From contig DATMML010000083.1 of the NCBI GenBank assembly GCA_035570235.1, positions 62,001 through 126,000 on the forward strand: a DNA stretch of 64,000 bases, in the 5' to 3' direction. This stretch comes from Vicinamibacteria bacterium. GTDB lineage: Bacteria > Acidobacteriota > Vicinamibacteria > Fen-336. This document shows, one piece after another, positions 3,492 through 17,811 of the stretch. A program made the position numbers and the translations under genes. The notes under the pieces were generated by a model that worked only from the letters and a program-made list of their open reading frames with translations, did no database searches and had not been told where the DNA came from. Position 1 is the stretch's first letter. Every line of letters starts with the position of its first letter.

Positions 3492-4517
3492 ATGGCGGTG
3501 GGCAGGCGTCGGGCCGTGCGGGGGGCGGTGTGGCTCGCCCTGCGGCCGGGACCGGCGATGCTGTGCGCGCTTCTGGCCCTGCCCCCGGGACCGCTCCGCG
3601 GAGAGGGGGCGTCGGGAGAGGCGCAGCGGGCCTTCTCCGGGGGAGAGTACGCCCGGGCCGCCGCCCTGTTCAAGGCGGCGATCGAAAAGGATCCCTCCGA
3701 CCCCGGTCCCCGCCATTGGCTCGCACGCTGCCAATACGAGCTTCGCCAATACGACGAAGCGGCCAAGAGCGAGGAAAGGGCCGTGGCCATCGACCCCGGC
3801 CGCTCGGAGTATCACCAATGGTTGGGCCGGGCCTTGGGCGGCCGCGCGGAACGGGCGGGGTGGCTGACCGCCTTCGTGCTCGCCCGGAGGGTGGGGGCGG
3901 AGTTCGAGCACGCGGTGCGGCTGGACCCTCACAACCTGAGGGCCCAGCGCGACTTGATCGAATTCTACGGGCGCGCCCCTGGCATCGTCGGCGGCGGGCA
4001 GGCGAAGGCGTGGCGGCAGGCGGAGGCTCTGGCCGGGATCGCTCCTCTGGAAGCCCGCCTGGCGCGGGCCGAGCTCTGGCGCGACCAGGCAAGGCCGGAT
4101 CGTGCCGAGGCCGAGTATCGGCTGGTGCTCGAGGCACGCCCGGGGCTCCCGGGCCCCTGCCTCGAAGTGGCCGACTTCTATGAGCAGCGCCGCGACGGTC
4201 CCCGCATGTCGGAAGCCGTGGAGGCTGCCACCGCCGCCGACCGCGGGGACCCGCAGCTGGCTTACTACGCGGGGGTAGCCGCCTTCCTTTTGGGGGGGCG
4301 GGACGCGGAAGCGGAGAGGCTCCTGGCGAAGTACCTAGACACCGTGCCCCCCCGCAGTGACCTGCCCACCCCGGCCGCGGCCCGGGAATGGCTGGGTCGG
4401 CTCTACGAGAGAGGGGGCCAACGCGCGGCTGCGGCCCGGGAGTATCAGAGCGCGTTGGCGCTCGATCCGGATCGGAAGGGCGCCCGCGAGGCCCTGCGCC
4501 GCCTCGGCCGGGAATGA
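3492..4517 (+). CDS. TPR-repeat protein, probably exported
   Basis: A protein of about 341 aa with an N-terminal Arg-rich then hydrophobic stretch (ending GPAMLCALLALPPGPLRGEG) that looks like a signal peptide. Tetratricopeptide-like repeats follow: AQRAFSGGEYARAAALFKAA, ARCQYELRQYDEAAKSEERA, and at the C-terminus LYERGGQRAAAAREYQSALA. Such proteins are protein-interaction scaffolds in the periplasm or outer membrane; the partner is unknown. ATG 3474 is an alternative start. The last 183 bp are covered on the other strand by the tail of the neighbouring membrane-protein frame, and the TPR frame is the one with recognisable repeats there. Confidence 0.8.
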   Translation: MAVGRRRAVRGAVWLALRPGPAMLCALLALPPGPLRGEGASGEAQRAFSGGEYARAAALFKAAIEKDPSDPGPRHWLARCQYELRQYDEAAKSEERAVAIDPGRSEYHQWLGRALGGRAERAGWLTAFVLARRVGAEFEHAVRLDPHNLRAQRDLIEFYGRAPGIVGGGQAKAWRQAEALAGIAPLEARLARAELWRDQARPDRAEAEYRLVLEARPGLPGPCLEVADFYEQRRDGPRMSEAVEAATAADRGDPQLAYYAGVAAFLLGGRDAEAERLLAKYLDTVPPRSDLPTPAAAREWLGRLYERGGQRAAAAREYQSALALDPDRKGAREALRRLGRE

Positions 4518-6140
4518 GGCGCCCCCCGGGCCGAGCACTCTTCGGGGGGTCATCGCGAGACAGGGGGCAGTTGGCCACGGCTGCGAGGGGCGTTCTTCTT
4601 CGGTGGGAGCCTCGAGTCCGGGCGGCGGCCCCATGCAGCAGGGGGGCATGACCGCTTCCGCGCTCCCGGGCCAAGCTCGTTCCGGGCCCGCCGTTTCCCA
4701 CTTAGGGGTCGGCCGGCCGCGCGGGGCGTAGACGAAGTAGGGCCGCAGGTACGCGCGCCGCGCGTAGTTCCGGCCCAGGGCCGCCCAGAGCTCGGGGGTG
4801 AAACGCTCCCGGGCATCATCATCCGTGAGAGGCTCCTCCAGGGGGGACTCCGTCACCACCCACGCCACGCGACGCTCCTCCACCTCCCGGAGGAGCGGTC
4901 CCTGGTCCCACCTTCCCATCTGGGCCAGGCCGGTGAAGTGAAAGAGCTGGATGTGGATGTCCCCGCGGGTGAAAAGGGAGAAGCTGCCCTGCTGAGAGAT
5001 CACCGGGCCCGGAGCGCTCTCCAGGATGGCCCGAACCGCGGGAGCCGCCCGGATGCTGTCCCGGTCCCAGGGTCCCTCTTCGAGCAGGACGAAGGCGGGC
5101 CCGTAGGCCAGCACGAGCGCGAGCTGGGCGACGGCGAGACGCCGGTGGGCGGGGGGGAAGAAGAGGCCACCCGTCCGGAGCAGGAAGAGGGCGCCCACGA
5201 CCAGAAGCTCCACCACCCACTGCCCGGAGGCGCCGGCCCGGCCCAGAGAGGGGATGGTCACGAGCAGCACCACCAGCAGGTAGCAGTCGATGGGCTCCAG
5301 GGTGCCCGCACGCAGGCGGGTGGCCAGACGGGATAGAGCAAGCCACAAGAAGGGGAAGAAGGCTCCCGCGTGGTGGATCAGGACGGGTGCGATCTGCGCG
5401 GCGTGATAGGGAAGGACGTTCATGCCCACCACGCTGTCGAGGAAGGTGCCCGCGGTCCAGGCTTGAAGCCAGGGGACGGGGGCCAAGCCGAGGACGGCGA
5501 CGGTGGCGGCGTATGCGATCAGCCGCGGGCGGTCCTTGGCCAGCAGCCAGAGACCCAGAGCCAGGGGCAGGACGAGCTGGGTCTGCTTGGTGTAGACCGC
5601 GAGCACCGCCAGCAAGGGGCTGAGGACGGCGGCCAGGATACGGTGCCGGCTCTCGAACAGGGCGAACGACCAGACGGAGAGGGCGACGGCCAGCATTTGG
5701 GGGTGCGGCCGGGCGACGTTGTAGAGAACAGCAGGGAGGAGGAGGAGGAGACAGGAGGCCCAGAGGCCCTCCCGGGCGTGGCCGCGCCACCTTTGGGCGA
5801 GCCCGGCCAGGGCCGCGGCCAGGGCCAGGCTGGCGAGGAGGGAGAGAAAGCGGGCGGGCCGGTAGCCGAGATCGGTGATGCGGAGGGCGGCGGCAAGGAG
5901 GGTGTGGTACAGCGGTGTGTAGGGGCTGACCACCCAGGGAGGCGCGTTCACGCCATGATAGAGGGGCTCCCCGCGGGAAAGGCGATAGGCGTTGTTGAGG
6001 ACCTCAGGGTCCGCGTCGTCCCAAGAGTGTCGCTGGGGAAGGATGAGCGGGGCCCAAAGGAGGCAGGTGAGGAGCGCGACCCAGGGCACGAGCCGCCGCA
6101 AGCGGGTCTCGAGATCGGGGGCGGGCGCGGATGCGTGCAT
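4335..6140 (-). CDS. GT-C-type multi-pass membrane protein (glycosyltransferase family 39-like)
   Basis: The first ~480 residues form a polytopic membrane protein with the layout of GT-C glycosyltransferases. An early loop carries acidic residues (HSWDDADPEVLNNAYRLSRG), then comes YTPLYHTLLAAALR, about ten hydrophobic helices and a soluble C-terminal part (FTRGDIHIQLFHFTGLAQMG). Such enzymes use polyprenyl-phosphate sugars on the periplasmic face; donor and acceptor are unknown. ATG 6140 is used, divergent from the sulfatase-like gene. Residues after about 490 (past [15 protein letters not shown]) are Pro/Gly/Arg-rich, unlike a real domain, and lie antisense to the TPR gene. The true end may be nearer 4700, with the frame staying open only because of high GC. 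Confidence 0.75.
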   Translation of the reverse strand: MHASAPAPDLETRLRRLVPWVALLTCLLWAPLILPQRHSWDDADPEVLNNAYRLSRGEPLYHGVNAPPWVVSPYTPLYHTLLAAALRITDLGYRPARFLSLLASLALAAALAGLAQRWRGHAREGLWASCLLLLLPAVLYNVARPHPQMLAVALSVWSFALFESRHRILAAVLSPLLAVLAVYTKQTQLVLPLALGLWLLAKDRPRLIAYAATVAVLGLAPVPWLQAWTAGTFLDSVVGMNVLPYHAAQIAPVLIHHAGAFFPFLWLALSRLATRLRAGTLEPIDCYLLVVLLVTIPSLGRAGASGQWVVELLVVGALFLLRTGGLFFPPAHRRLAVAQLALVLAYGPAFVLLEEGPWDRDSIRAAPAVRAILESAPGPVISQQGSFSLFTRGDIHIQLFHFTGLAQMGRWDQGPLLREVEERRVAWVVTESPLEEPLTDDDARERFTPELWAALGRNYARRAYLRPYFVYAPRGRPTPKWETAGPERAWPGSAEAVMPPCCMGPPPGLEAPTEEERPSQPWPTAPCLAMTPRRVLGPGGASFPAEAAQGLAGALPIRIERQRALILPGRSRALAPSLVEPTQPFPGRGRGGQVTAGGHGV

Positions 6141-6221
6141 GCCGGCCCGGATTCTATCCCTGGCCGGCGAGGGCGCGGGCGACCCCTGCCTGCAAGCGAC
6201 GCTGTGCTATCGTTTCCAAGA

Positions 6222-7583
6222 ATGCGCGGTCCCCTGGCGATGCTGCTCCTCCTTGGCGGTCCCCCCGCCCTGACTGCGGCAGAGCCCCCGCGCGCGATCG
6301 TCCTCGTGACCATCGACACCCTGCGCGCCGATCACCTAGGTGTCTATGGCTATGGGCGGCCCACCTCGCCCTTTCTGGATCGCCTGGCGCGCGAAGGGGT
6401 TCTCTTCGAAAACGCCTTCGCCTCTTCGTCGATGACGGCGGCCTGCCACTCCTCGCTCTTCACCGGCCTTCATCCGCCCCAACACGGAGTGAGGCTCAAC
6501 GACGAAGGCTTCAGCGCCCCGAACCACCGGCGCTTCCGTACCCTGGCGGAGACCCTGTCCGGGGCGGGCTACACGACCGGCGCCTTTTCCGCGGTCGGGT
6601 TCCTGAACTCGATCGCGCAGGGCTTCGAGACCGTTGACGCCGGGAGCGGGGACTACCTGCGGTACCGCCAAGCGGACGCGGTGGTCGACCGGGCCCTGGC
6701 CTGGGTGGGAAAACGGAAGCGCGACGAACGATTCTTCCTCTGGGTCCACCTATTCGACGTGCACCCGCCGCGCCGCTCCCCCCCCCACGGCACGAGCCGG
6801 CTCCTCTTCGAATCGGCCGCCGCCGCCGAGCATTTCGCGCGGGAGGCCATGGAGCGCCGTGGCGTCACGCCGAGCGCTTACCCTACCCCGGCCGCCCTGG
6901 CCCTGAGCTACGCCCAGTACGACACCGAGGTCGCTTTCGTGGACCAGGAGCTGGGGCGGTTGTTCGACCGCATGGGAGCCATGCACTTGAACGAGCGCGC
7001 GGTCTGGATCGTGACCGCGGACCACGGCGAGGGCCTGGGGAACCACGACTGGCTCGATCATGTTCGCTTTCTTTACAACGAGGCGGTCCGCGTTCCTCTG
7101 ATCATCTACGCGGAAGAGCGATGGGAAGAGCGGCGCGTGAAGGACCTCGTGCGGCATGTAGACGTCATGCCCACCCTCCTCGCCCTCCTCGGCCTTCCCT
7201 TCGAGCAGCCGGGCTTTACCCCCGTGGGACGCTCCCTGCTCCCCCTCTTGGAAGGAGGCAAGATGGTCCCCGCCATGTCGTTCTCTCTGCGGCGGCCCTG
7301 GGGCTCCGATCACCGCGACTGGGAGCGGGGAGAGGTCTTCGCCCTGCAGGACCTGGATTGGAAGTACATCGCCCACACCGACGGCAAGGACGAGTTCTTC
7401 GATCTGCGGAGCGATCCCCTCGAGCTCCGGAACCTGGTGGATGCGCCCTCACCCGTGAGAGACCGTCTCTCGGATATGACGCGGGAGGTCTTTGCGGCCC
7501 TGCGCAGAGAGGGGCAGGTGGCCACCAAGCACGCCGAGCCGGCGGTGACGGACGAGCTCAAAGCGCTCGGCTACATCCACTAA
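6222..7583 (+). CDS. Sulfatase-superfamily (alkaline-phosphatase fold) hydrolase, exported
   Basis: A 453-aa protein with a signal peptide (MRGPLAMLLLLGGPPALTAA) and the metal-binding N-terminus of sulfatases (VLVTIDTLRADHLGVYGYGR). Other family marks are the HLFDVHPP region, the metal site VTADHGEGLGNHDWLDH, and a C-terminal tail ELKALGYI that is common in this branch. The nucleophile region reads TAACHSSLFTGLHPP. Aligned to the sulfatase pattern (C/S)-x-P-S-R-x4-T-G, the nucleophile position is Thr, and the Pro and Arg are changed. A formylglycine sulfatase is therefore unlikely; a phosphodiesterase or phosphotransferase role is more plausible. The gene is convergent with the hopanoid operon. 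Confidence 0.85.
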   Translation: MRGPLAMLLLLGGPPALTAAEPPRAIVLVTIDTLRADHLGVYGYGRPTSPFLDRLAREGVLFENAFASSSMTAACHSSLFTGLHPPQHGVRLNDEGFSAPNHRRFRTLAETLSGAGYTTGAFSAVGFLNSIAQGFETVDAGSGDYLRYRQADAVVDRALAWVGKRKRDERFFLWVHLFDVHPPRRSPPHGTSRLLFESAAAAEHFAREAMERRGVTPSAYPTPAALALSYAQYDTEVAFVDQELGRLFDRMGAMHLNERAVWIVTADHGEGLGNHDWLDHVRFLYNEAVRVPLIIYAEERWEERRVKDLVRHVDVMPTLLALLGLPFEQPGFTPVGRSLLPLLEGGKMVPAMSFSLRRPWGSDHRDWERGEVFALQDLDWKYIAHTDGKDEFFDLRSDPLELRNLVDAPSPVRDRLSDMTREVFAALRREGQVATKHAEPAVTDELKALGYIH

Positions 7584-7634: not shown

Positions 7635-8552
7635 TTACCGAGCCCACTTCTGACGGAACCAGTCCACGGTGATGCGGATGCCCACCTCGAAGTCGACCCG
7701 GGGAGACCACCCCAGCTCGCGGCGAGCTTTCTCCCCCGAGACCTCCTTGCCCGCAAAGTCACCGGCACGTTCCGGACCGAGCTCGATGCGCACTCCGTTG
7801 CCGAGGACCCGGCGGATCCCCTCTGCCACCTCCAGCACCGTGACTTTGCGCACACCCTCCAGGTTGTAGGTCTTGTTGGCCGCCACGTCGTTCATGGCCA
7901 GCAAGTGGCCCTCGGCCATGTCGCGCACGTAGATGAACTTCCGGTATTGATCGCCCGTGCCCGAGACCGTGAGTGGCTCCCCCGCCAACGCCTTCTTGAT
8001 GAACACGGGGATGAGGAGTTCCTCGCGCATGCGGGGACCGTAGGGGATCCCGTAGCGGAGCACGGTGAAAGGGACGCCGTAGAGCTGGCCATAGTTGTGG
8101 CAGACCATCTCGCTCGCCATCTTGGTGGAGGTGTAGATGTGGCCGGCGCCGTCCAGGTAGAAGGGGGTGCTCTCATCCACCGCGTCTCCGCCGGGAGCTC
8201 CGTTGTAGACCCAGACCGTGGACGCCAGGTAGAACCGCCGCGCCCCGTTGAGGCGCGCCGCCTCCAGGATGTTAGCCGTGCCCACCACGTTGAGGGTGGC
8301 GGTGTACACGGGGTACTTGAGGGCGTAGTTGACGTTGGACACCGCGGCCAAGTGGAAGATGTGTTCCGCGCCCCGGGTCGACGTGAGCACGGAGGAGAGG
8401 TCCATGAGGTCCACGTCCTCGAAGCGCACGTCCGGACGATGGGGCCGCACGCGGTGATCGATGACGGTCACGTCGTGCCCGGCCTCGATCATGACGTCCA
8501 CCACGTGGGATCCGATGAAGCCGCTACCGCCGGTGACGACGACCTTCGCCAT
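7635..8552 (-). CDS. NAD-dependent sugar epimerase/dehydratase (extended SDR)
   Basis: A 305-aa extended short-chain dehydrogenase. The Rossmann motif GGSGFIGSH is at residues 8-16, the NAD-binding region HLAAVSN follows, and the catalytic Tyr-Lys pair sits in IYTSTKMASE. The RKFIYVRDMAEGHLLAM segment and C-terminal LGWSPRVDFEVGI are typical of UDP-glucose 4-epimerase/ArnA-like enzymes. ATG 8552 is preceded by GAGGAG. It is the last gene of the long minus-strand hopanoid operon, 12 bp after the aminotransferase. Its exact sugar substrate is not readable from sequence. I infer it works with the aminotransferase on a nucleotide sugar, possibly for a hopanoid head group. Confidence 0.87.
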   Translation of the reverse strand: MAKVVVTGGSGFIGSHVVDVMIEAGHDVTVIDHRVRPHRPDVRFEDVDLMDLSSVLTSTRGAEHIFHLAAVSNVNYALKYPVYTATLNVVGTANILEAARLNGARRFYLASTVWVYNGAPGGDAVDESTPFYLDGAGHIYTSTKMASEMVCHNYGQLYGVPFTVLRYGIPYGPRMREELLIPVFIKKALAGEPLTVSGTGDQYRKFIYVRDMAEGHLLAMNDVAANKTYNLEGVRKVTVLEVAEGIRRVLGNGVRIELGPERAGDFAGKEVSGEKARRELGWSPRVDFEVGIRITVDWFRQKWAR

Positions 8553-8564
8553 GGCGCCTCTCCT

Positions 8565-9719
8565 CTAACCGATGGTTTCTCGGATGGCCCTCATCACGAG
8601 CTGGGTCTGCCGGGGTTCCATCCCCGGGAAGATGGGCAGGCAGATGTGGCGGGCACAGAGATCCTCGGCCACGGGGAGGGCCGATGATGCGTAAGCACGG
8701 AAGACGGGCTGAGCGTGGAGGGGCGTCTCGTAGACCTCGCCCGCCAGCGACACCCCGAAGCGTTCCTTGAGATGCTTCTTCAGGGCGGGCCGGTCGCGCC
8801 GCTCGCGGAGGACGGCGACGTACTTGTAGTAGTTGGACACCCCACCCGGGGGCACGGCGAGGGGACGAAGCCCATGCTCACCCCGGAGCCCGTCGTCGTA
8901 GGCAGCGGCGATGGCCTGCCGCTCGGCCATCAGGGTCGGCAGCCGCTCCAGGTGCCGGAACCCGATGATCGCGTGCGGCTCCGACATCCGCCAGTTGTAG
9001 CCCAGCCGGACGTGGGCGTTCTGCCCGAAACTGGCCTTGCCCTGGTCGCGGTAGATCCTTGCCTCCTCCGCAAGGCGGTCGTCGTCGGTCACGATCATGC
9101 CCCCCTCCGCGGAGGTCACCACCTTGGTGGGGTAGAAGCTGAAGGAGGCCGCCACCCCGAAACGGCCCGCGGCCACGCCGCCGTGGGAAGAGCCGTGGGC
9201 ATGGGCCGCATCCTCCACGAGCCAGAGGCCCTTTCCCCGGGTCCACTCCGCCAGCTCGCGCATCCGCCGCGAAATGAGACCGCCGATGTGGACCGGGACC
9301 ACCCCCACCGTGCTGGGTGTGATCCGCCTCTCCACGTCCTCGGGGGAGATGCCGAGGGACTCGGGATCGGTGTCCACGAAGATGGGCCGGCCGCCCGCGT
9401 GTACGACCGCGGCGGCGGTGGCGAAGAAGGTGTTCGTGGGGACGAGCACGTCCTTTCCCTCGATCCCGAGCACCCTGAGGATGATCTCCAGGGCGCTGGT
9501 TCCGCTGTTCACCGCCACCGCGTGGCGGGCCCCGCAGAGGCCGGCAAAACTCTGCTCGAAGGCAGCTCCGTACCTCCCCAGGGTGAGCTCCCCCGAGGCC
9601 AGGACCTCCTGGATCCGCTCCGCGATCCAGGCCCGGTCTTCGGGCGGAAAGTGGATCCGGGCGGCGGGGACGCTGAGCGGAGCGGCGGAATCAGCTCTCT
9701 CGGGCGGCAGGGGCGGCAT
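8565..9719 (-). CDS. DegT/DnrJ/EryC1/StrS-family aminotransferase (ArnB-like)
   Basis: A PLP enzyme of 384 aa that aminates keto-sugars bound to nucleotides. Family marks are ASGELTLGRYGAAFEQSFA near the start, AVNSGTSALEIILR, the PLP-binding VEDAAHAHGS, and FSFYPTKVVTSAEGG with the Schiff-base lysine. The C-terminal third has the family's HAQPVF and LPIFPGM segments. ATG 9719 is supported by a strong GGAAAGGAGG ribosome binding site. The gene overlaps the upstream small transporter by 29 bp. Position in the hopanoid operon suggests an amino-sugar product, but the link to hopanoids is inferred from neighbours only. Confidence 0.9.
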   Translation of the reverse strand: MPPLPPERADSAAPLSVPAARIHFPPEDRAWIAERIQEVLASGELTLGRYGAAFEQSFAGLCGARHAVAVNSGTSALEIILRVLGIEGKDVLVPTNTFFATAAAVVHAGGRPIFVDTDPESLGISPEDVERRITPSTVGVVPVHIGGLISRRMRELAEWTRGKGLWLVEDAAHAHGSSHGGVAAGRFGVAASFSFYPTKVVTSAEGGMIVTDDDRLAEEARIYRDQGKASFGQNAHVRLGYNWRMSEPHAIIGFRHLERLPTLMAERQAIAAAYDDGLRGEHGLRPLAVPPGGVSNYYKYVAVLRERRDRPALKKHLKERFGVSLAGEVYETPLHAQPVFRAYASSALPVAEDLCARHICLPIFPGMEPRQTQLVMRAIRETIG

Positions 9720-10137
9720 GGCTTTCCTCCTTTCCCGTGGGATCTCCGCTCCCACGCGGCCCGCTCTCGGCCAGCCCGATCAGGACTACGCCCCCGATCA
9801 CGAGGGCGATCCCTAGCCAGCGAAGGGCGGGCACCGCTTCCTTGAGGATCACGACCCCCAGCACGGCGGCGAAGGCGTACTCCAGGGCGGTGAGGGGAAG
9901 CGCGACCGTCACCTCCGACCAGGAGAGAACGGCCAGGAAGAGAAGATAGAAAATCGCGTTCATCAGCGTTCCCCCGATGACGTAGGGGTTGGCCGCGGCG
10001 CGCACGAAGTAGGCGACGAGATCGAGGGGGGCCCATCGCTCGAGGGAGCCGACCTGCTGCATCCCATATCGAACCAGGATCTGTCCGACCGCGGCGCTTG
10101 CGCAAGCCAGGGTCATTGCGGTGAGGGTTCGCGACAT
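9691..10137 (-). CDS. Small DMT-superfamily transporter (SMR/EamA half, ArnE/ArnF-like)
   Basis: A 148-aa protein with four hydrophobic segments, among them MTLACASAAVGQILVRYGMQ, PYVIGGTLMNAIFYLLFLAV and LGIALVIGGVVLIGLAESG. The region LPLTALEYAFAAVLGVVILKE is the most conserved part of EamA/SMR halves. Start ATG 10137 is preceded by GGAAGGAG. Four-helix members include multidrug exporters and ArnE/ArnF, which flip undecaprenyl-phosphate-aminoarabinose. The next two genes encode an ArnB-like aminotransferase and an ArnA-dehydrogenase-like epimerase, so a lipid-linked amino-sugar flippase is attractive, though not shown. Confidence 0.8.
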   Translation of the reverse strand: MSRTLTAMTLACASAAVGQILVRYGMQQVGSLERWAPLDLVAYFVRAAANPYVIGGTLMNAIFYLLFLAVLSWSEVTVALPLTALEYAFAAVLGVVILKEAVPALRWLGIALVIGGVVLIGLAESGPRGSGDPTGKEESHAAPAARES

Positions 10138-10175
10138 CGGGCTCTCCTTCCGAGCTCGGCCCCCAGCCCGCTCGA

Positions 10176-11027
10176 TCAGAGGTCGCCGAAGGCAATCCGG
10201 CACGCGCCGGTCGCCCGCAGCGCCTCCATCACCGAGGGGCTAGTGAGGGCTTGTAGCTCCGCCTCGTGCCGATAGGCGGGCATGTGCCGCTCCGTCTGGG
10301 GACAACGGGCGGTGGCGGGGTGAAAGTACATCTCGGTGACTCCGTCCGGAAGCCTCTGGAGGAAGCGGGCCACGAGCGCGGCGTGCATGTTGCCGCTGTC
10401 GTGGAGCCCGAAGGCGAACTGGTTCGACTTCAGGCCGGCTTGGGCGAGCCGCCGCCTCAGGAGCCCGATCCAGGGGGCGAGGAAGGCGGAACCCAGAAGC
10501 CGCCGCGCGAAGGCGGTGCGCGCGGCGCCCCACGAGGCCAGGGGAGGCTCGTAGGGCACGCGGACGGCAGCCAGGCCGAACTCTCGCCCCACCTCCACGA
10601 TCATGGCCAGGACGGAGGGGTGCAGGTGCATGTGGTTGTGGGCGTTGACGTGATCGAGAGGGAGGCCGGTGGCGGCGAAGGCCTCGAACTGCGCGCGGAT
10701 CTCGGCCCGAAGCTGCCGCCGGACGCGACTTCGGAAGAAGAAGCGGACCCCCGCGCGCACGAGGTGAGTCGAGAACTCGCCGTGCTCGTCCACGAGGTCG
10801 GGGACGACGGCGGGGGGAAGCAGCGGCCTCCCCTCCACCAGGACCAGGTGAAGGCCCACGCCGAGGGAGGGGAGCCGGCGCGCGCGCTCAATCGCGTCTG
10901 CGGTGGCCTCCGCCCCGACCATCAGGCTGGCTGCGGTCAGGATCCCCCGTTGGTGGGCCTCTTCGATGCCCTGGTTGACGGGGAGGGCCAGGCCGAAGTC
11001 ATCGCCGGTCACGATGAGCCGCTTCAC
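10176..11027 (-). CDS. hpnK: Hopanoid biosynthesis-associated deacetylase HpnK (YdjC family)
   Basis: A 283-aa YdjC/ChbG-like carbohydrate deacetylase. The metal-binding start KRLIVTGDDFGLALPVNQGI and the His cluster HVNAHNHMHLHPSV are clear, with a C-terminal TEMYFHPA segment. In known hopanoid pathways HpnK removes the acetyl group from N-acetylglucosaminyl bacteriohopanetetrol after HpnI adds GlcNAc. I place the start at GTG 11027, which overlaps the hpnI stop by 4 bp (GTGA) and puts the first strand right at the N-terminus. HpnJ, the next enzyme toward the cyclitol ether, is not present in this window. Confidence 0.9.
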   Translation of the reverse strand: MKRLIVTGDDFGLALPVNQGIEEAHQRGILTAASLMVGAEATADAIERARRLPSLGVGLHLVLVEGRPLLPPAVVPDLVDEHGEFSTHLVRAGVRFFFRSRVRRQLRAEIRAQFEAFAATGLPLDHVNAHNHMHLHPSVLAMIVEVGREFGLAAVRVPYEPPLASWGAARTAFARRLLGSAFLAPWIGLLRRRLAQAGLKSNQFAFGLHDSGNMHAALVARFLQRLPDGVTEMYFHPATARCPQTERHMPAYRHEAELQALTSPSVMEALRATGACRIAFGDL

Positions 11028-12193
11028 GGCAGGGGCTCCCGGGCAACCATGCGCCCATCCGGGGTCAGGTTGAACTGCTCCCCCCGCCAGATGACGGTCG
11101 GTTGGATGAAGGCCAGGGCCCAGGACACGAGCCCGGCCAGGTCGCGCAAGGGGAGAAGGCCTAGCCTTCCCACGCTCTTGCCGTCCCCGAGCCCAAAGCG
11201 GAGGGTCACCGCGGCGGCGAGGAGCCGGACGGCGAGGGCACCAGCCAGGACCTCCCAACCCAGAGGGTCGAAGAGGCGGACGACTGCGAAGAGGAGCGCG
11301 AAGGGGACGGAGCGCACCAAGACCGTGCCCAGGAATCCCCAAGGGTTGGCGGAGCGCGTGTTCTGATCCCAGTACACCTGGTGGTTCCACCATTGCCGCG
11401 GCGACTTGAGGTCCACAATCGTATCTACGAAATAGGGGGCCACGACGATTCGCTTACCGGCCGCGAGTATGCGCCGACCCATCTCGAAGTCCTCGACAAG
11501 GTAATCGGAGAGGGCGGCGAGGCCCCCGATCTCCGCGAGGACAGAAGAGGAGAGGGCGGTGGAGGCCCCGAGCACGAATCGGGAGGCCCCGCTCCAGGCG
11601 GCGAAGACCAAGCTGGGTACGAAATCAGCGTTGAGCGTGAGCTGCTCCAGGGCTTCGTACCAGCTCTGGGCCCCCACCGCCTTGTAAAACGTGCAGGCGC
11701 AGCCCACTCCCGGCTCGGCCAGAAGGGGCACGATCGTTACGAGGTAATCGGGTCTCAGGCGAACGTCGCTGTCGCTGATGACCAGGAAAGTGTGCCGGGC
11801 CCGGGGCAGCGCTCCCAGGAGATTCCGGATCTTTCCGTTGGGGGCGGTCTGGGTGTCGTCGACCACGACGTCGACCTTGGCGGAACCGAACTCCTGCTGG
11901 AGCCGGAGGAGGAGGGGGAGGGCGGGGTCGTCTTTTCTCTGCACGGAGAAGATGACCTGGAACTCGGGATAGTCCTGCTGGCACGTACTCCGCAGGTTCT
12001 CCTCCAGGCCCTTCTCCAGCCCATGAATCGGCTTCAAGACCGTGACGGGCGGAGAGAAGGCGAGCCCCGCTCGCCCTCGTCCCGGCCCCCGCCGGAGCCG
12101 GAGCACGGCGGCCAGACACAGCACCGCGTAAACCGAACCTCCGGCCACGGGCAAGAGCAGCGCCCACTGTAGGGCGAGCCAAAGCGTCAACAT
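11024..12193 (-). CDS. hpnI: Hopanoid glycosyltransferase HpnI (GT2, ceramide-glucosyltransferase-like)
   Basis: A 389-aa membrane glycosyltransferase. An N-terminal membrane helix is followed by the GT-A domain (SPPVTVLKPIHGLEKGLEEN; VVVDDTQTAPNGKIRNL; the metal-binding region VISDSDVRLRPDYL). Then come a catalytic acidic region (LSDYLVEDFEMGRRIL), the WWNHQVYWDQNTR segment and C-terminal membrane helices. HpnI transfers GlcNAc to bacteriohopanetetrol. ATG 12193 begins 51 bp after hpnG ends. Together with hpnK it predicts glucosaminyl-hopanoids. Confidence 0.9.
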   Translation of the reverse strand: MLTLWLALQWALLLPVAGGSVYAVLCLAAVLRLRRGPGRGRAGLAFSPPVTVLKPIHGLEKGLEENLRSTCQQDYPEFQVIFSVQRKDDPALPLLLRLQQEFGSAKVDVVVDDTQTAPNGKIRNLLGALPRARHTFLVISDSDVRLRPDYLVTIVPLLAEPGVGCACTFYKAVGAQSWYEALEQLTLNADFVPSLVFAAWSGASRFVLGASTALSSSVLAEIGGLAALSDYLVEDFEMGRRILAAGKRIVVAPYFVDTIVDLKSPRQWWNHQVYWDQNTRSANPWGFLGTVLVRSVPFALLFAVVRLFDPLGWEVLAGALAVRLLAAAVTLRFGLGDGKSVGRLGLLPLRDLAGLVSWALAFIQPTVIWRGEQFNLTPDGRMVAREPLP

Positions 12194-12244
12194 GGGGGGG
12201 CTTGATACACGGTGATCCGGCGGGAGCGCGGCTCGGTCATGACG

Positions 12245-13099
12245 TCACGGCCTTCGCTCGAGACTCGGTATTGTCGCTCCATTCTGCGGCCCCGCCCCCC
12301 CCCGGGGATCGCGCGCCGCCTCCCCCTTCAGGAGCCCCTCGACAAAGCGGGCCAGACCCTCCCCTCCGGATCGCGTGCGGGCGCGCAGGGCGATCAGGTC
12401 GGACACGAGCCGGGGGCGGAGGAGGGCCTGGCGCACGACCTTGGCCCGGCTCAGGCCACCGTCGGGGTCCTGGCAGCGGGCGAGGATCTCAGGCAGGTTC
12501 TCCTCGGCCCGGTCGAGGACGCTGCGCACGATCAGGTAAGGGATGCCCTTCTCGGCCGCCACCCGCGCCCAAGCCGCCGACTCCAGGTCGACGGCCGCGG
12601 GTTGGGCGGGGGAGCACGTCCTCCAAAGGGAGGCCTTGCCCTCCGCACTCCAGAGCAGTTCGTCCACGGTCACGAGGGTGGCCCGCCGGGGGGCCCCCTC
12701 CGAGCGCAGGGCGCGTTCCACCCAGGAGGCGTCCGGTGCCCCCACCGCGCCCGAGGAGTCCCGGACAGGGTCGCCCACGAGAATCTCTCCCGCGCCCAGG
12801 CCCGGGGAGAGGCCCCCCGCGACCCCCGCTCCCAAGAGTCCGCGGACGGAGAAGGCATCGAGCAACGCCCGTGCGCCCCGGTCCGCCCTGCGCTGTCCGA
12901 CCCCGGTGCAGGTCATGACTACGGGTTTTCCCGCGAGGTCTCCCAGGAGGAAGCGGGAAGACCGGGCCCGGGTCGCGCGCACGTTCGCCGCCCGCCGCCG
13001 GAGGGGAGCGAGCTCCTCGGGGAGGGCGGTGACGATGCCCAGGAGAGGGGTCGACGCTTCCCAACCCTCGGTGCCCGGCCGGCTAGCGGGGACGGACAT
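12245..13099 (-). CDS. hpnG: Hopanoid-associated nucleoside phosphorylase HpnG
   Basis: A PNP/MTAN-family protein of 284 aa: LLGIVTALPEELAPLRRR at the N-terminus, VVMTCTGVGQRRADRGARAL, GVAGGLSPGLGAGEILVGD and the ribose-binding region AAVDLESAAWARVA. In hopanoid producers HpnG removes adenine from adenosylhopane to give (phospho)ribosylhopane. ATG 13099 overlaps the end of hpnA by 17 bp. The last ~45 residues (after about GGEGLARFVEGLLKG) are Gly/Arg-rich and poorly conserved in character. Confidence 0.88.
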   Translation of the reverse strand: MSVPASRPGTEGWEASTPLLGIVTALPEELAPLRRRAANVRATRARSSRFLLGDLAGKPVVMTCTGVGQRRADRGARALLDAFSVRGLLGAGVAGGLSPGLGAGEILVGDPVRDSSGAVGAPDASWVERALRSEGAPRRATLVTVDELLWSAEGKASLWRTCSPAQPAAVDLESAAWARVAAEKGIPYLIVRSVLDRAEENLPEILARCQDPDGGLSRAKVVRQALLRPRLVSDLIALRARTRSGGEGLARFVEGLLKGEAARDPRGGAGPQNGATIPSLERRP

Positions 13100-14090
13100 A
13101 GCCGTTCTCTCGAAACCAGCGGACCGCCCGCTCGAGCGCGTCCTCGATGGCGGTCTGCGGAAGCCCCAGCTCGCGCACGGCCTTGCCGGCATCGAAGAAC
13201 ATGCGATGACGGGAGAGTCGGACGCTCTCGATCGGTATCTCAGGGGAGCGCCCGACCAGGCGCGCAAACGATGTGTCCACCGCGGCCACGGCGAGAGGAA
13301 TCCAGTGGGGGACGCGGAGGCGCGGCGCGGGGAGGCCGGTCAGCCGGGCCAGCGTCTCCAGGAGCTCCTTCAAGGTCATGTTCCGGTGCCCGAGGATGTA
13401 TTTCTCGCCCACCCGGCCCTTCTCGGCGGCCAGGAGGTGGCCCTCGGCGACGTCGCGGACATCCACCAGGTTCAGGCCGGTCTCCACGTAGGCGGGCATG
13501 CGGCGGTTCAGGAACCGGACCAGGATCTGGCCGGTGGGGGTGGGTTTGATGTCCAGCTCGCCGACCGGCGCCGAGGGATTGACGATGACGAGGGGGAGCC
13601 CCTGGACGGACCACTCCTGCGCCACCCGCTCGGCCAGGAACTTGCTGCGCTTGTAGTGACCGACCATGTCCGCGAGGGCGACCGGGGTCTCCTCGGTGGC
13701 GGGCCGCCCAGTTCGGTTGAGGCCCAGGGCCCCCACCGAACTCGTGTAGACGACCCTCGACACCCCCGCCTCGGCGGCGGCGCGGAGCACGTTCCGGGTT
13801 CCCTCGACGTTGTTGGCGTAGGTCTCTCGGGGATCGCGCACGTAGAGCCGGTAGTCGGCGGCGCAGTGGAACACCGTGGCCACGCCTTGGGTCGCCCGCC
13901 GGAGGGATGCCGCATCCGTGAGGTCGCCGGGAACGATCTCAACGGGCAGGCCCGCGAGGTTGCGCCGGTCGCTCGTGGGGCGGACGAGGCAGCGCGGGCG
14001 CTCGCCCCGCCCCACAAGGGCGCGCACGAGGTGGGCTCCCAGGAAGCCGGTGCCGCCGGTGACGAGGGTGGGGCCGGACGACGAGGCCAT
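13083..14090 (-). CDS. hpnA: Hopanoid-associated sugar epimerase HpnA (extended SDR)
   Basis: A 335-aa NAD(P)-dependent enzyme of the dihydroflavonol-reductase-like branch. It shows VTGGTGFLGAHLVRAL at residues 9-24, FHCAADYRLYVRDP, VVYTSSVGALGL, the catalytic YKRSKFLAE and NPSAPVGELDIKPTPTG. These last two segments are characteristic of HpnA, whose reaction is still unsettled. It lies between hpnH and hpnG, as in many hopanoid clusters. ATG 14090 follows a 37-bp gap after the hpnH stop. Confidence 0.9.
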   Translation of the reverse strand: MASSSGPTLVTGGTGFLGAHLVRALVGRGERPRCLVRPTSDRRNLAGLPVEIVPGDLTDAASLRRATQGVATVFHCAADYRLYVRDPRETYANNVEGTRNVLRAAAEAGVSRVVYTSSVGALGLNRTGRPATEETPVALADMVGHYKRSKFLAERVAQEWSVQGLPLVIVNPSAPVGELDIKPTPTGQILVRFLNRRMPAYVETGLNLVDVRDVAEGHLLAAEKGRVGEKYILGHRNMTLKELLETLARLTGLPAPRLRVPHWIPLAVAAVDTSFARLVGRSPEIPIESVRLSRHRMFFDAGKAVRELGLPQTAIEDALERAVRWFRENGYVRPR

Positions 14091-14127
14091 GGACCCGAGC
14101 CTCGACCCCTTTGGTCGAGGGCCCTCT

Positions 14128-15129
14128 TCAGCCTAACAGGTTCCAGGCCACGAGCCGGACCATGTCCCCCGGGCTCTTGGGGAGCTCGCGGACCACGGAG
14201 GCCTCGAAGCCCGAGTGCATCGCGCAGTTCTGGCACAGCCGGTTGGTGCGGGACTCCCAGTATGGCCAGTTCGTGCCGTTCCAGAACTCCTCCCAGGAGA
14301 AGGTGTAGGTCTGGCCGATCAAGTAGCAGGGCCCCTTCCAACCTCGGGGGGTGAAGGTGACCGTGCTCCAGGGCGAGCATTTGTAGTCGCGCAGGCCGGC
14401 TGCGAATTCGAGGAACATCGGGGTCGAGGTCAAGCGGTACCGCTTCGAGATCTCCAAGATCTTCCCGAACTTCTTTTGGATCTCGACCTTCGTCATGAAG
14501 ATGTCCCGCTCCACCGACTCGTAGTGGTAGCCGGGGGTGACGAGCATTCCCTCCACTCCCAGCTCGCTCAGGAGATGGCAGAGCTCCTCGACCTCGTCCA
14601 CTTCGGTGTCCTTGAAGACGGTCATGTTCGCCATCACGTGATGGCCCAGCTCGAGCCCCTGCTTGATCATGGCCAGCGCCTTGTCGAAGACCCCCGCCCG
14701 GGCGCAGACCCGGTCGTGGGTCTCCCGCAGGCCGTCCAGGTGCACGTTGATCATCAGCCTCTTGTTGGGCGGGATGCGTCCGTAGACGCTCTCGTCCAGG
14801 AGGAGGCCGTTCGTGCAGAGGTAGATGTGCCGGCTGCGGGCGATGATTTCCGTGACCAGCTGGGGGAGCTCGGGGTAAAGGGTGGGCTCCCCCCCGCAAA
14901 GAGAGACCACCGGTGCGCGTGATTCCTCCACCGCTTGCAAGCACGCGGCCACGGGCAGGCGATCCTTGAGTTTTCCCGTGTGACGCTCGACGGCGCAGCC
15001 GATGCAGGCGAGGTTACAGGCGTACAGCGGTTCCAGCATCAGCACGTAGGGGAACCTCTTGTTCCCGCGGAGGGCGTTGCGGACCTGGTTGCGGATCATG
15101 TCCGTCGTGATGTGCAGGGGGTATCTCAT
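14128..15129 (-). CDS. hpnH: Adenosylhopane synthase HpnH (radical SAM)
   Basis: A 333-aa radical SAM enzyme that joins hopene with a 5'-deoxyadenosyl group to make adenosylhopane, the first side-chain extension step. The N-terminus MRYPLHITTDMIRNQVRNAL is characteristic of HpnH. The CX3CX2C iron-sulfur motif is at about residues 37-44 (YACNLACIGCAVE), the SAM-binding GGEPTLYPELPQL follows, and a C-terminal part ends in an extra Cys cluster (LCQNCAMHSGFE). ATG 15129 overlaps the shc stop by 4 bp (ATGA), so the two genes are coupled. Confidence 0.95.
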   Translation of the reverse strand: MRYPLHITTDMIRNQVRNALRGNKRFPYVLMLEPLYACNLACIGCAVERHTGKLKDRLPVAACLQAVEESRAPVVSLCGGEPTLYPELPQLVTEIIARSRHIYLCTNGLLLDESVYGRIPPNKRLMINVHLDGLRETHDRVCARAGVFDKALAMIKQGLELGHHVMANMTVFKDTEVDEVEELCHLLSELGVEGMLVTPGYHYESVERDIFMTKVEIQKKFGKILEISKRYRLTSTPMFLEFAAGLRDYKCSPWSTVTFTPRGWKGPCYLIGQTYTFSWEEFWNGTNWPYWESRTNRLCQNCAMHSGFEASVVRELPKSPGDMVRLVAWNLLG

Positions 15130-17129
15130 GCCCGCATCTCCTCGATGAGCGCGAAGGGGGCGGTCGTGCCCTCGAGCGCCTGCAGGCTCTGGAAAACCCC
15201 CAGGGCCAAGAGCGGGGAATAGACCGCATAAAGGTGATAACGCAAATAGAAGACCTTGGGGAACCCGGTACCCGTCCAGTAGTCGTCGCGCCACCCTCCC
15301 TCCGGGCCCTGGTTGCGCAGCAGATACTCGAGGGCACGCCGGACCCCGGGGGAGTCCAGATGGTTTAGGGCAAAGAGCGCGAGCAGGGCCCACGACGTCT
15401 GCGACGCGGTGCTGGGGCCGATCCCCTTCTGGGCGGGATCGTCGTAGGAGGTGGGCAACTCCCCCCAGCCTCCGTCGTCGTTCTGGCAACGGTAGAGCCA
15501 GGTCGCCGCCCGCTGGTAGCGTTCCTGGGTCAGGTCCTCACCCACCTGCGCGAGGCCGCGCAGGGCCAGCCAGGTGCCGTAGAGATAGTTGCAGCCCCAG
15601 CGCCCGTACCAGGTCCCGTCCGGCGCCTGCTTTGCCCGCAGAAAAGCCATGGCCCGCCGTAGGGCGGCACTCTGGGGGGAAATGCCCAAGTGGTGCAGGG
15701 CCTCCAAGCCGCGGCCGGTGATGTCTTCGCAACTGGGGTCGATCATGGCGTTGTGGTCGGCGAAGGGAATGAAAGTGAGGACCTCGTTGTCGCAACCTTT
15801 GTCGAAAGCCCCCCATCCCCCGTCCGCGTTCTGCATGCTGAGAAGCCAGCGAAGCCCCCGATCGAGGGCTTCCCTCCGGTCCTGATCGCTGGCCGGATGG
15901 GCCAGGCGGAGGCGGCTCAAGGCGGTCAGGACGGCGGTGGTGTCGTCGGCGTCGGGATAGAAGGGGTTGCGGTACTCGAAGAACCAACCCCCCGGCTCCG
16001 CTTGGGGACTCCTCCGCTGGTAGTCGCCCGGTCCCCGTGCCTCTCGGTCCAGGAGCCATCGCGCTCCTTTCTCGAGCGCGGGGTGCGCGGCGGGCAAACC
16101 CGACTCGAGGAGAGCCTGGAGGGCGAGGGAGGTGTCCCAGGTAGCCGAGAAGCAGGGCTGAATCCGCAGCGTGTCCTCGTCCTCGATCTCCAGCTTCTCC
16201 AGCTCGCCAACTTGGCTCACGAGCAACGGGTGGTCGAGGGGGTAGCCCAAGCAGCGGAATGCGATGACGGTGTTGATGATGGGAGGCAGAATCGCCCCCA
16301 GGCCATCGCTGCCCTCGAGCCGCTCCCGGATCCAGGACTCCGCCCTCTTGAGGGCCCTCGCCCGGAGTGGGGTCAGGGAGGCGGCCTCCAGCGCTTTGAG
16401 AGTCCAGTTGGCGGCACGGAAGAAGGTGGTCCACAGTCGCTGCCGGAGCCCGCCCGCAGGGCGGCGGGGCTCGAGGGGCGCGCCCGGGCGATGAAGCTCG
16501 AGAATGTTCGCGTGGTCCGGGACCGGGCAGGAAGGTCTACAGGCCCAGATGATCGAGAGGGGGACCACGATGGCTCTCGACCAAGACGAAATCCGGTAGA
16601 TGTTCAAGGGGAACCAGTCGGGCAGCAGGATCAGTTCGGGTGGCACGGCGGGGCAGCTATCCCAGCGGCACTGCCCGAAGATGGCCAGGTAGATCCGAGT
16701 GAAAGAGTTGCAGGCGTCGATGCCCCCCAGACCCAGGATCACGTCCCGGGCTCTGACCATGTGGGGGGCACCGGGATCGTCGCCCATCACCTTGAGGACA
16801 AAGTAAGCCTTGACGGAAGCGCTGACCTCAGGCGGACCGCCGGGATACACGGCCCACCCCCCCCGGGGAAGCTGCCGGCGCCGGATGTACTCGGCGGCCT
16901 TGCGCGCCCGCGCCTCACCGCTACGGCCGAGCAGATGGAGAGTGAGCAGGTATTCCGATTCGACGATCGTGTCGCCTTCGAGCTCGCCGCACCAGTGGCC
17001 ATCGGCTGCTTGCAGGGAGAGCAGGTACGCTTGCGCCGATTCCACCGCGGCGCCCACGCGGGCGCCGAACGACGCGTAGACCTCCTCGGCCCTAAACTGT
17101 AAGTCCTCCACCAACGGGCGTGCCCTCAT
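15126..17129 (-). CDS. shc: Squalene-hopene cyclase
   Basis: About 667 aa, the usual size of the family. It cyclises squalene to hopene and is the entry enzyme for hopanoids, acting at the membrane. The catalytic DXDD motif is DADDTTA at about residue 390. Several QW repeats are seen, for example QNADGGWGAFDKG, QNDDGGWGELPTSYDD and QGPEGGWRDDYWTG. ATG 17129 is used; a TTG at 17135 in the same frame is closer to the GGGGAGGG binding site and cannot be excluded. It is the first gene of the nine-gene minus-strand operon that reaches 7635. Confidence 0.95.
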   Translation of the reverse strand: MRARPLVEDLQFRAEEVYASFGARVGAAVESAQAYLLSLQAADGHWCGELEGDTIVESEYLLTLHLLGRSGEARARKAAEYIRRRQLPRGGWAVYPGGPPEVSASVKAYFVLKVMGDDPGAPHMVRARDVILGLGGIDACNSFTRIYLAIFGQCRWDSCPAVPPELILLPDWFPLNIYRISSWSRAIVVPLSIIWACRPSCPVPDHANILELHRPGAPLEPRRPAGGLRQRLWTTFFRAANWTLKALEAASLTPLRARALKRAESWIRERLEGSDGLGAILPPIINTVIAFRCLGYPLDHPLLVSQVGELEKLEIEDEDTLRIQPCFSATWDTSLALQALLESGLPAAHPALEKGARWLLDREARGPGDYQRRSPQAEPGGWFFEYRNPFYPDADDTTAVLTALSRLRLAHPASDQDRREALDRGLRWLLSMQNADGGWGAFDKGCDNEVLTFIPFADHNAMIDPSCEDITGRGLEALHHLGISPQSAALRRAMAFLRAKQAPDGTWYGRWGCNYLYGTWLALRGLAQVGEDLTQERYQRAATWLYRCQNDDGGWGELPTSYDDPAQKGIGPSTASQTSWALLALFALNHLDSPGVRRALEYLLRNQGPEGGWRDDYWTGTGFPKVFYLRYHLYAVYSPLLALGVFQSLQALEGTTAPFALIEEMRA

Positions 17130-17811
17130 GTCCAATGCACCCTCCCCTTCAGAAAGGGCTCCTATCAGGGAAGGGGTGCGTTAACGATGGTGCCTTTGTA
17201 CTCAAGACTGAACCGCGTACGTCGGCGATTCTTGGCTGCCTACCCTTTGCTCCCTTGCGCGTGGGCGCGCGTGCGAAGCAAGACAACGTAGCATAGGCGG
17301 TTTTCGACGGCAATCCCCGAATGGCCACCGTCCAGACTCGACCGCAATGCCCCCACGCCAGTTTCCTACGCCACGGCCCGGTCGCGCAAGGGGTGCGGTC
17401 GACAGGCGCCGGGCTAATTGTTATTTTTTGTTAAGAGTCGCCGCGGGTGACGCTTCCAAGCGGGGGCGGCCGTCGTGCTCATCGCCAGGGGAGGCGACGT
17501 TCAGGGCCAGGTGGTAGCGGAGAGCGCGACCGGTGGTTCCGAAGCGGCGAACGCCGCAGAGGTCGGGGGAGAGGTTCTGCGAGTCGAGGTCCGATGACCC
17601 GCCTCCCTTCGGACTCAACCTCCTCCCGGGGTTCACCTTCGATCAAGCGCTTCAACGTGGGCAGGGCTCCTTGAGGAATTGACCTTGGGGTAGTGGCGAC
17701 GGTGATCTAGACGGGGTGGAGATGGCGGGGGCGGGTGACGACCCAGGGGTGGCAGGCTCGACCCAAAGGGATGTATAGGTAGAGGAAAGGGCGGCGGAGT
17801 CGCCCGACTTT
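17130..17811. other. Long divergent intergenic region before the hopanoid operon
   Basis: No convincing gene is seen. Short open frames here are Arg/Gly/Ser-rich and look non-coding. It should hold the hopanoid operon promoter on the minus strand. The best candidate is weak: TTGAGT (17205-17200), a 16-bp spacer and TAACGC (17183-17178). The stretch 17410-17440 is locally AT-rich (TTGTTATTTTTTGTTAAGAG), unusual for this genome. No RNA gene was recognised. Confidence 0.35.

Follow-up and report, generated by a model that had tools for sequence, protein, structure and literature searches.

The 64,000-nucleotide stretch analysed here (hereafter the window; positions 62,001 to 126,000 of contig DATMML010000083.1, assembly GCA_035570235.1, Vicinamibacteria bacterium, phylum Acidobacteriota) carries a hopanoid operon of nine genes, all on the minus strand and in one direction, in the order SHC-HpnH-HpnA-HpnG-HpnI-HpnK-SMR-DegT-SDR. 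The upstream part encodes a squalene-hopene cyclase (HpnF/SHC; 15126..17135; TIGR01507, 654 bits, cut-off 431), the adenosyl-hopene transferase HpnH (14128..15129, start set by model match; TIGR03470, 347 bits, cut-off 225), the hopanoid-associated short-chain dehydrogenase/reductase (SDR) HpnA, distinct from the SDR at the operon end (13083..14090; TIGR03466, 481 bits), and an HpnG-like phosphorylase (12245..13096, start uncertain), whose top NCBIfam match, TIGR03468, reaches 116.5 bits and does not meet the cut-off of 187. These are followed by HpnI (11024..12193; TIGR03472, 324 bits, cut-off 310), identified by its position in the tree and by residues Y274, E234, C167, W268 and N278 as what is termed below a type II glycosyltransferase, and by the YdjC-type deacetylase HpnK (10176..11027; TIGR03473, 393 bits, cut-off 233). 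The operon closes with a trio already described, with its spacing, by a first-pass annotation made from the sequence alone: an SMR/EamA-fold membrane protein of 148 amino acids (9691..10137; PF00892, E 1.1e-9), a DegT/DnrJ/EryC1/StrS aminotransferase with its pyridoxal phosphate (PLP) lysine in the motif FSFYPTK (8565..9719; PF01041, E 3.6e-102) and an extended SDR of the ASTVWVY family (7635..8552; PF01370, E 1.1e-53). A gap of 38 bp separates the end of HpnK at 10176 from the start of the SMR open reading frame at 10137, the end of the latter at 9691 overlaps the DegT start at 9719 by 29 bp, and 12 bp lie between the DegT end at 8565 and the SDR start at 8552; the coordinates given in that annotation proved exact, and family scans agree with it. 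Promoter and terminator scans yielded nothing informative.

HpnJ, reported missing by the same annotation, is absent from the whole window genome (5.72 Mb, 99.57% complete), in which the best match scores 70.6 bits against a cut-off of 577.6. HpnK above its cut-off was found in 27 of the 392 Acidobacteriota genomes sampled. None of the 12 HpnJ-bearing genomes among them contains a close DegT homologue, and DegT is present in all 13 testable genomes of the 15 without HpnJ, the contigs of the remaining two (G318 and G270) breaking within or just after the SMR gene located 3' of HpnK. The association gives a Fisher p of 1.9e-7 without the two truncated contigs and of 6e-6 when they are counted as DegT-negative, both values being uncorrected for relatedness. 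Among the Acidobacteriota sampled, DegT and HpnJ exclude each other as partners of HpnK; the HpnJ genomes come from six families, and one family (f73) shows both states. Exclusivity as a universal rule is ruled out by loci and genomes of other phyla in which DegT and HpnJ occur together, namely in Nitrospirota (L006, L008, L010, L029 and L204), Myxococcota (L023 and L024) and Gammaproteobacteria (L049).

Close homologues of the window DegT (65-78% identical) occur in Nitrospira, other Nitrospirota, Acidobacteriota, Myxococcota and Pseudomonadota, almost all of them beside HpnI and HpnK and most commonly in the order HpnI-HpnK-SMR-DegT-SDR; FSFYPTK is present in nearly all. In the DegT tree (86 sequences) a 44-member clade with support 99/91, to which the window protein belongs, takes in every hopanoid-linked DegT except that of L030 and spans Acidobacteriota, Nitrospirota, Pseudomonadota, Myxococcota and metagenome-assembled genomes labelled Marinimicrobia. 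Its members adjoin HpnI/HpnK or core hopanoid genes, or share a genome with HpnI; four members had no hopanoid-linked label, and HpnI was present in their genomes on checking. For L027, L039, L044, L047, L050 and L068 the link comes from an adjacent SHC, squalene-synthase-family or other gene shared by hopanoid clusters, or from the same neighbourhood, with no HpnI search. Genomes with a DegT outside this clade gave an HpnI match in 2 of 34 cases, both type I by residue. The trees count distinct sequences, and contigs and genomes overlap between searches (L009 with G209 and L020 with G247, for example). The linkage of DegT to hopanoid genes is beyond chance, and the trio is not freely separable from them across relatives. 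A coincidental neighbourhood with no functional link, in favour of which stands solely the fact that the trio can be split, is scarcely credible against a linkage repeated in several phyla with Fisher p values of 6e-6 to 8e-22. DegT had looked like a private insertion in the window lineage, given that the other 13 of the 14 genomes of its family lack a relative, a family-level picture overturned by wider homologue searches. As neither HpnI nor HpnK was found in the family and class relatives of the window genome listed in the phylum samples, the operon at 7635-17135 may have been acquired horizontally.

The strongest part of the finding, and one that could not be seen from the window sequence alone, is that HpnI falls into two deep types, of which type II is paired with DegT. 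In a tree of 57 HpnI sequences a single 100/100 branch parts 38 type II from 19 type I proteins across five phyla; the former come from loci or genomes that carry DegT, two of the sequences lying on truncated contigs, the latter from genomes without DegT. All 38 type II sequences have Y at residue 274 and all 19 type I sequences have R (HxxYW for HxxRW); residue 234 divides them just as completely, E against D, and positions 167, 268 and 278 carry C, W and N in type II and T, L/F/M and T/S/G in type I, respectively. These fixed differences fall in glycosyltransferase motifs, in which both types retain D235 and the DxD aspartates; in this glycosyltransferase superfamily the Arg that comes second in the (Q/R)xxRW motif contacts the donor phosphates. 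The window protein scores 324 bits with TIGR03472, compared with 384-456 for type I members in Pseudomonadota. The type II set had been gathered largely through DegT, and samples found by HpnI instead were therefore added. Among the Pseudomonadota so found, type II occurs in G419 and G885, both with DegT, and the other eleven genomes have no DegT. Among the Acidobacteriota, all 13 DegT genomes lie within the 85 with HpnI, and the typed HpnI proteins from the rest of the 85 are type I or off-motif, with the exception of G221; R274 is found in nearly all typed HpnI of Acidobacteriota without DegT, with the motif lost from some second copies. Over 392 genomes the association of DegT with HpnI type gives p of about 8e-22, uncorrected for relatedness and with not every HpnI typed by residue. 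Extra acidobacterial HpnI copies (L304, L328 and L330) have D, S or G at position 274, which makes them additional types, degenerate or divergent.

No residue of HpnK distinguishes the two types, and D9, D10, H60 and H126, all present in the window protein, are kept in at least 97% of 63 sequences; its deacetylase chemistry is for this reason probably unchanged between the types. The best solved relatives of DegT are mostly aminotransferases of nucleoside diphosphate (NDP)-keto-sugars (perosamine synthase, QdtB and ArnB), and its score with the ArnB equivalog model is 183 bits (cut-off 631). For the SDR, sequence and structure searches return UDP-glucose 4-epimerases first, with 4zrm as the closest solved fold. 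Its residues T112, V113, W114, Y140, K144 and R204 are invariant in the alignment, giving S-T-V-W-V-Y where UXS-type decarboxylases have S-T-S-E-V-Y, and neither the acid residues of 4,6-dehydratases nor those of UXS/ArnA decarboxylases occur in it. The invariant residues are consistent with an NAD-dependent oxidoreductase or epimerase that acts on an NDP-sugar; the Arg at the R204 position binds the NDP phosphate in relatives. Since the catalytic Glu of the ArnA dehydrogenase/decarboxylase is absent, the enzyme should not make a 4-keto-pentose. The earlier parallel with the folds of aminoarabinose-lipid (Arn) modification stands for DegT (ArnB) and for the SMR protein (ArnE/F); for the SDR it extends to the family and not to the decarboxylase site, which has the invariant T-V-W. 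The SDR family (E<1e-60) is found in 0/12 HpnJ-type and 12/15 DegT-type Acidobacteriota genomes; it is adjacent and 74-76% identical in G201 and G247, and in most f37 genomes it is about 43% identical and lies elsewhere in the genome or one gene away. A second, GalE/TviC-like SDR adjoins HpnJ or HpnI in nearly all HpnJ-containing type II loci (L010:5709-6668, with matching genes in L006, L008, L024, L028, L029, L034 and L204).

The SMR protein scores 31 bits with ArnE (cut-off 92) and 24 bits with ArnF (cut-off 99). Its predicted structure (pLDDT 88) has four long helices and one short one, and Foldseek matches it best to Gdx-Clo and EmrE (probability 1.00, TM by target 0.72-0.77, E 0.04-0.09, with values as high as 0.4 also recorded). 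In HpnJ-type Acidobacteriota without DegT (L119, L121, L122, L126, L127 and L130), SMR genes occur in pairs beside HpnK, mostly in the space that separates it from HpnI, so that the SMR protein is a general partner of the hopanoid glycosylation step and is not specific to DegT. Similarity to ArnE/F and gene context suggest that it is a candidate flippase for glycosylated hopanoids. The trio is hence not the strict unit first supposed: SMR genes also occur in HpnJ-type clusters, and some DegT loci have no SMR gene or only a divergent SDR. Of the amino-sugar head group with its own flippase that had been proposed, the head group is still the best reading, on an inferred pathway, and the candidate flippase is not specific to DegT.

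We read these data, tentatively and with doubt slightly outweighing belief, as a variant hopanoid-glycosylation module in which type II HpnI adds an amino sugar other than plain N-acetylglucosamine (GlcNAc). Gene content and order, the absence of HpnJ, linkage, HpnI types, residues and the SMR fold are computed; the donor, the order of steps, the product and the transport are inferred, as follows. SHC, HpnH, HpnG and HpnA would supply bacteriohopanetetrol (BHT). The SDR would oxidise an NDP-sugar at one hydroxyl, UDP-GlcNAc at C4 being the likeliest case, with no dehydration or decarboxylation, and the ketone would be aminated by DegT, yielding an amino-sugar donor. Type II HpnI would move this sugar onto BHT, HpnK, in its classical role, would take off the N-acetyl group, and the product might be carried across the inner membrane by the SMR protein. 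Donor supply is assigned to DegT, usually with the SDR, because it is the glycosyltransferase, not the deacetylase, that changes type together with the aminotransferase. In Acidobacteriota this branch would replace HpnJ, that is, the cyclitol-ether branch, and in some Nitrospirota, Myxococcota and Pseudomonadota both would coexist. That the product is a BHT-diaminodideoxyhexose is possible and rather doubtful; the calculated [M+H]+ of BHT-2,4-diamino-2,4-dideoxyhexose is 707.557, that of BHT-glucosamine or of the cyclitol ether 708.541. Generalised, the proposal is of a second hopanoid-glycosylation branch in at least five phyla, some Nitrospira included, where type II HpnI and a donor made by DegT, with or without the SDR, lead to di-amino-sugar or otherwise novel amino-sugar hopanoids, which we put forward with less than even confidence.

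Several points weigh against the proposed module. Exclusivity in the Acidobacteriota rests on just 13 DegT genomes from 3 families, and HpnI type and DegT could both be tracking ancestry and not function, although they are concordant across phyla. One HpnI, in G221 (G221:C147:3-893, L307), has Y274 with no DegT call, on a contig of 3.3 kb in a genome 89% complete. At E<1e-60 no SDR is found in G126 or G262, and most f37 genomes have a divergent one, so that in this form the enzyme is not essential everywhere. Core hopanoid genes adjoin the module solely in the window, in a Marinimicrobia/Rhodospirillaceae group and, as HpnA only, in L025; the flanks examined in most other carriers showed no SHC, and about 1.0 Mb examined of one f37 genome (2.8 Mb) contained no SHC in that part.

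The last of these points bear most directly on the best-surviving alternative, in which type II HpnI, HpnK, SMR and DegT, with or without the SDR, make an amino-glycolipid on an acceptor that is not always a hopanoid, the window organism having placed the module in a hopanoid operon. Most type II loci have flanks without core hopanoid genes, type I loci often have SHC or HpnH nearby, and the closest solved relative of HpnI is a ceramide glucosyltransferase. Set against this, the window carries all nine genes, SHC to SDR, in a single direction, the Marinimicrobia/Rhodospirillaceae group clusters SHC, squalene-synthase-family genes, DegT and type II HpnI with HpnJ within about 20 kb (SHC and squalene-synthase-family genes within about 10 kb of the module), and almost all the type II genomes tested have an HpnK that passes the hopanoid cut-off. 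A non-hopanoid acceptor in some carriers is unlikely.

An improbable route, next in standing, has type II HpnI transfer GlcNAc and HpnK produce BHT-glucosamine, on which DegT and SDR would then perform oxidation and amination in the place of HpnJ. DegT does replace HpnJ, the last enzyme of the classical route, in Acidobacteriota, and the DegT and SDR genes come after HpnI and HpnK. A modification after transfer is hard to reconcile with fixed motif residues that shift with DegT in HpnI and not in HpnK, with the retention by the SDR of the NDP phosphate-binding Arg, and with close DegT-SDR pairs in genomes lacking HpnI, beside glycosyltransferases or NeuB. Quite improbable, too, is DegT as a functional analogue of HpnO, aminating the side chain. 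The conversion of ribosylhopane to aminobacteriohopanetriol is a transamination by HpnO, typically encoded outside hopanoid clusters (PMC12583986), and DegT sits within a hopanoid operon; its nearest relatives and its partner SDR are nevertheless NDP-sugar enzymes, and the aminotransferase covaries with the type of glycosyltransferase. A true Arn-like route is very improbable. It would have undecaprenyl phosphate carry an amino sugar, which the SMR protein would flip and an ArnT-like enzyme pass to lipid A or another envelope acceptor, the hopanoid neighbourhood reflecting envelope co-regulation. The folds match ArnB and ArnE/F, and an ArnT-like PMT gene lies 3' of the SDR in L078, L020/L195 and L017/L202 and adjoins DegT in L009. 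The module nonetheless has no ArnC, ArnD or ArnA-type decarboxylase, the window PMT-family gene has no usable homology to the ArnT-like gene of relatives, and both the switch of HpnI type and the exclusivity with HpnJ would be left unexplained.

Beyond the operon end lie a PMT_2 glycosyltransferase gene (4335-6140, minus strand) and a convergent sulfatase-like gene (about 6150-7583, plus strand), neither clearly orthologous to module neighbours in other genomes. An ArnT role in the module was rejected for the PMT_2 gene, which scores 22.7 bits against the ArnT-like gene found in relatives, and no ArnC was found among the scanned window neighbours, the rest of the genome not having been searched. 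The ArnT/PMT-like glycosyltransferases 3' of the SDR or DegT in acidobacterial loci are at L078:11094-12836, L195:11094-12764, L202:685-2382 and L009:9371. Next after the SDR in Nitrospirota come an LtaS/phosphoglycerol-transferase-like protein of the sulfatase superfamily and an Omp85 protein (L010:11089-13227 and 15216-16574; L014, L015, L018, L019 and L071), and several of these loci have an NtrC/histidine-kinase pair 5' of HpnI. The window sulfatase-like gene is weakly similar to the LtaS-like gene of these loci (40.8 bits, 24% over one stretch).

The genes hpnI, hpnK and hpnJ serve to predict composite hopanoids and to read them as biomarkers. Should the proposed module be real, current annotation would misassign the hopanoids of Nitrospira-related and acidobacterial lineages, TIGR03472 filing type II proteins under BHT-glucosamine, and nitrogen-bearing composite hopanoids of unidentified structure could be traced to candidate genes and sought by a predicted mass. 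The gene patterns suggest that some soil and nitrifying bacteria make a novel hopanoid head group. Elling et al. reportedly described in 2022 novel nitrogen-containing hopanoids in nitrite oxidisers, which we take as a lead and not as evidence. SHC is present in only some acidobacterial subdivisions (PMC5462960), shc and hpnH occur in marine Nitrospirales (PMC10579370), and later-eluting isomers of BHT glucosamine and of the cyclitol ether, of unknown structure, have been recorded (PMC12583986) in strains that could not be linked to type II HpnI. The SMR genes, single or paired, are candidate flippase genes for glycosylated hopanoids, a transport step for which the literature search found no described gene; nor did it turn up any account of DegT, SDR or SMR proteins as partners of HpnI.

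Among known systems, the ArgD-like HpnO and DegT belong to different aminotransferase classes. HpnO likewise places an aminotransferase in hopanoid metabolism, in the synthesis of aminobacteriohopanetriol, but is typically encoded outside the hpn cluster and has been described as close to ArgD (PMC5462960). The PseC/LegC/perosamine-like DegT-SDR pairs of surface glycan clusters share both families with the module, and a sister clade has an ASTVWVY-type SDR motif and conserved pair order; the sister-clade genomes, however, mostly lack HpnI, and the module SDR lacks the 4,6-dehydratase signature. The Arn system for aminoarabinose-lipid A has the same combination of DegT aminotransferase, extended SDR and four-helix SMR protein, whereas the module has no formyltransferase and its acceptor is most likely a hopanoid; the ArnB and ArnE/F scores lie far under the cut-offs. 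In the classical pathway HpnI, HpnK and HpnJ form a three-step route to BHT cyclitol ether, and Rhodoligotrophos appendicifer, which lacks hpnJ, produces BHT glucosamine only (PMC12583986). The window operon shares with this pathway HpnI and HpnK above the NCBIfam cut-offs, the operon logic and the conserved HpnK residues, and differs from it in doing without HpnJ, in the Y for R in the HxxRW motif of its HpnI and in the addition of DegT and an NDP-sugar SDR.

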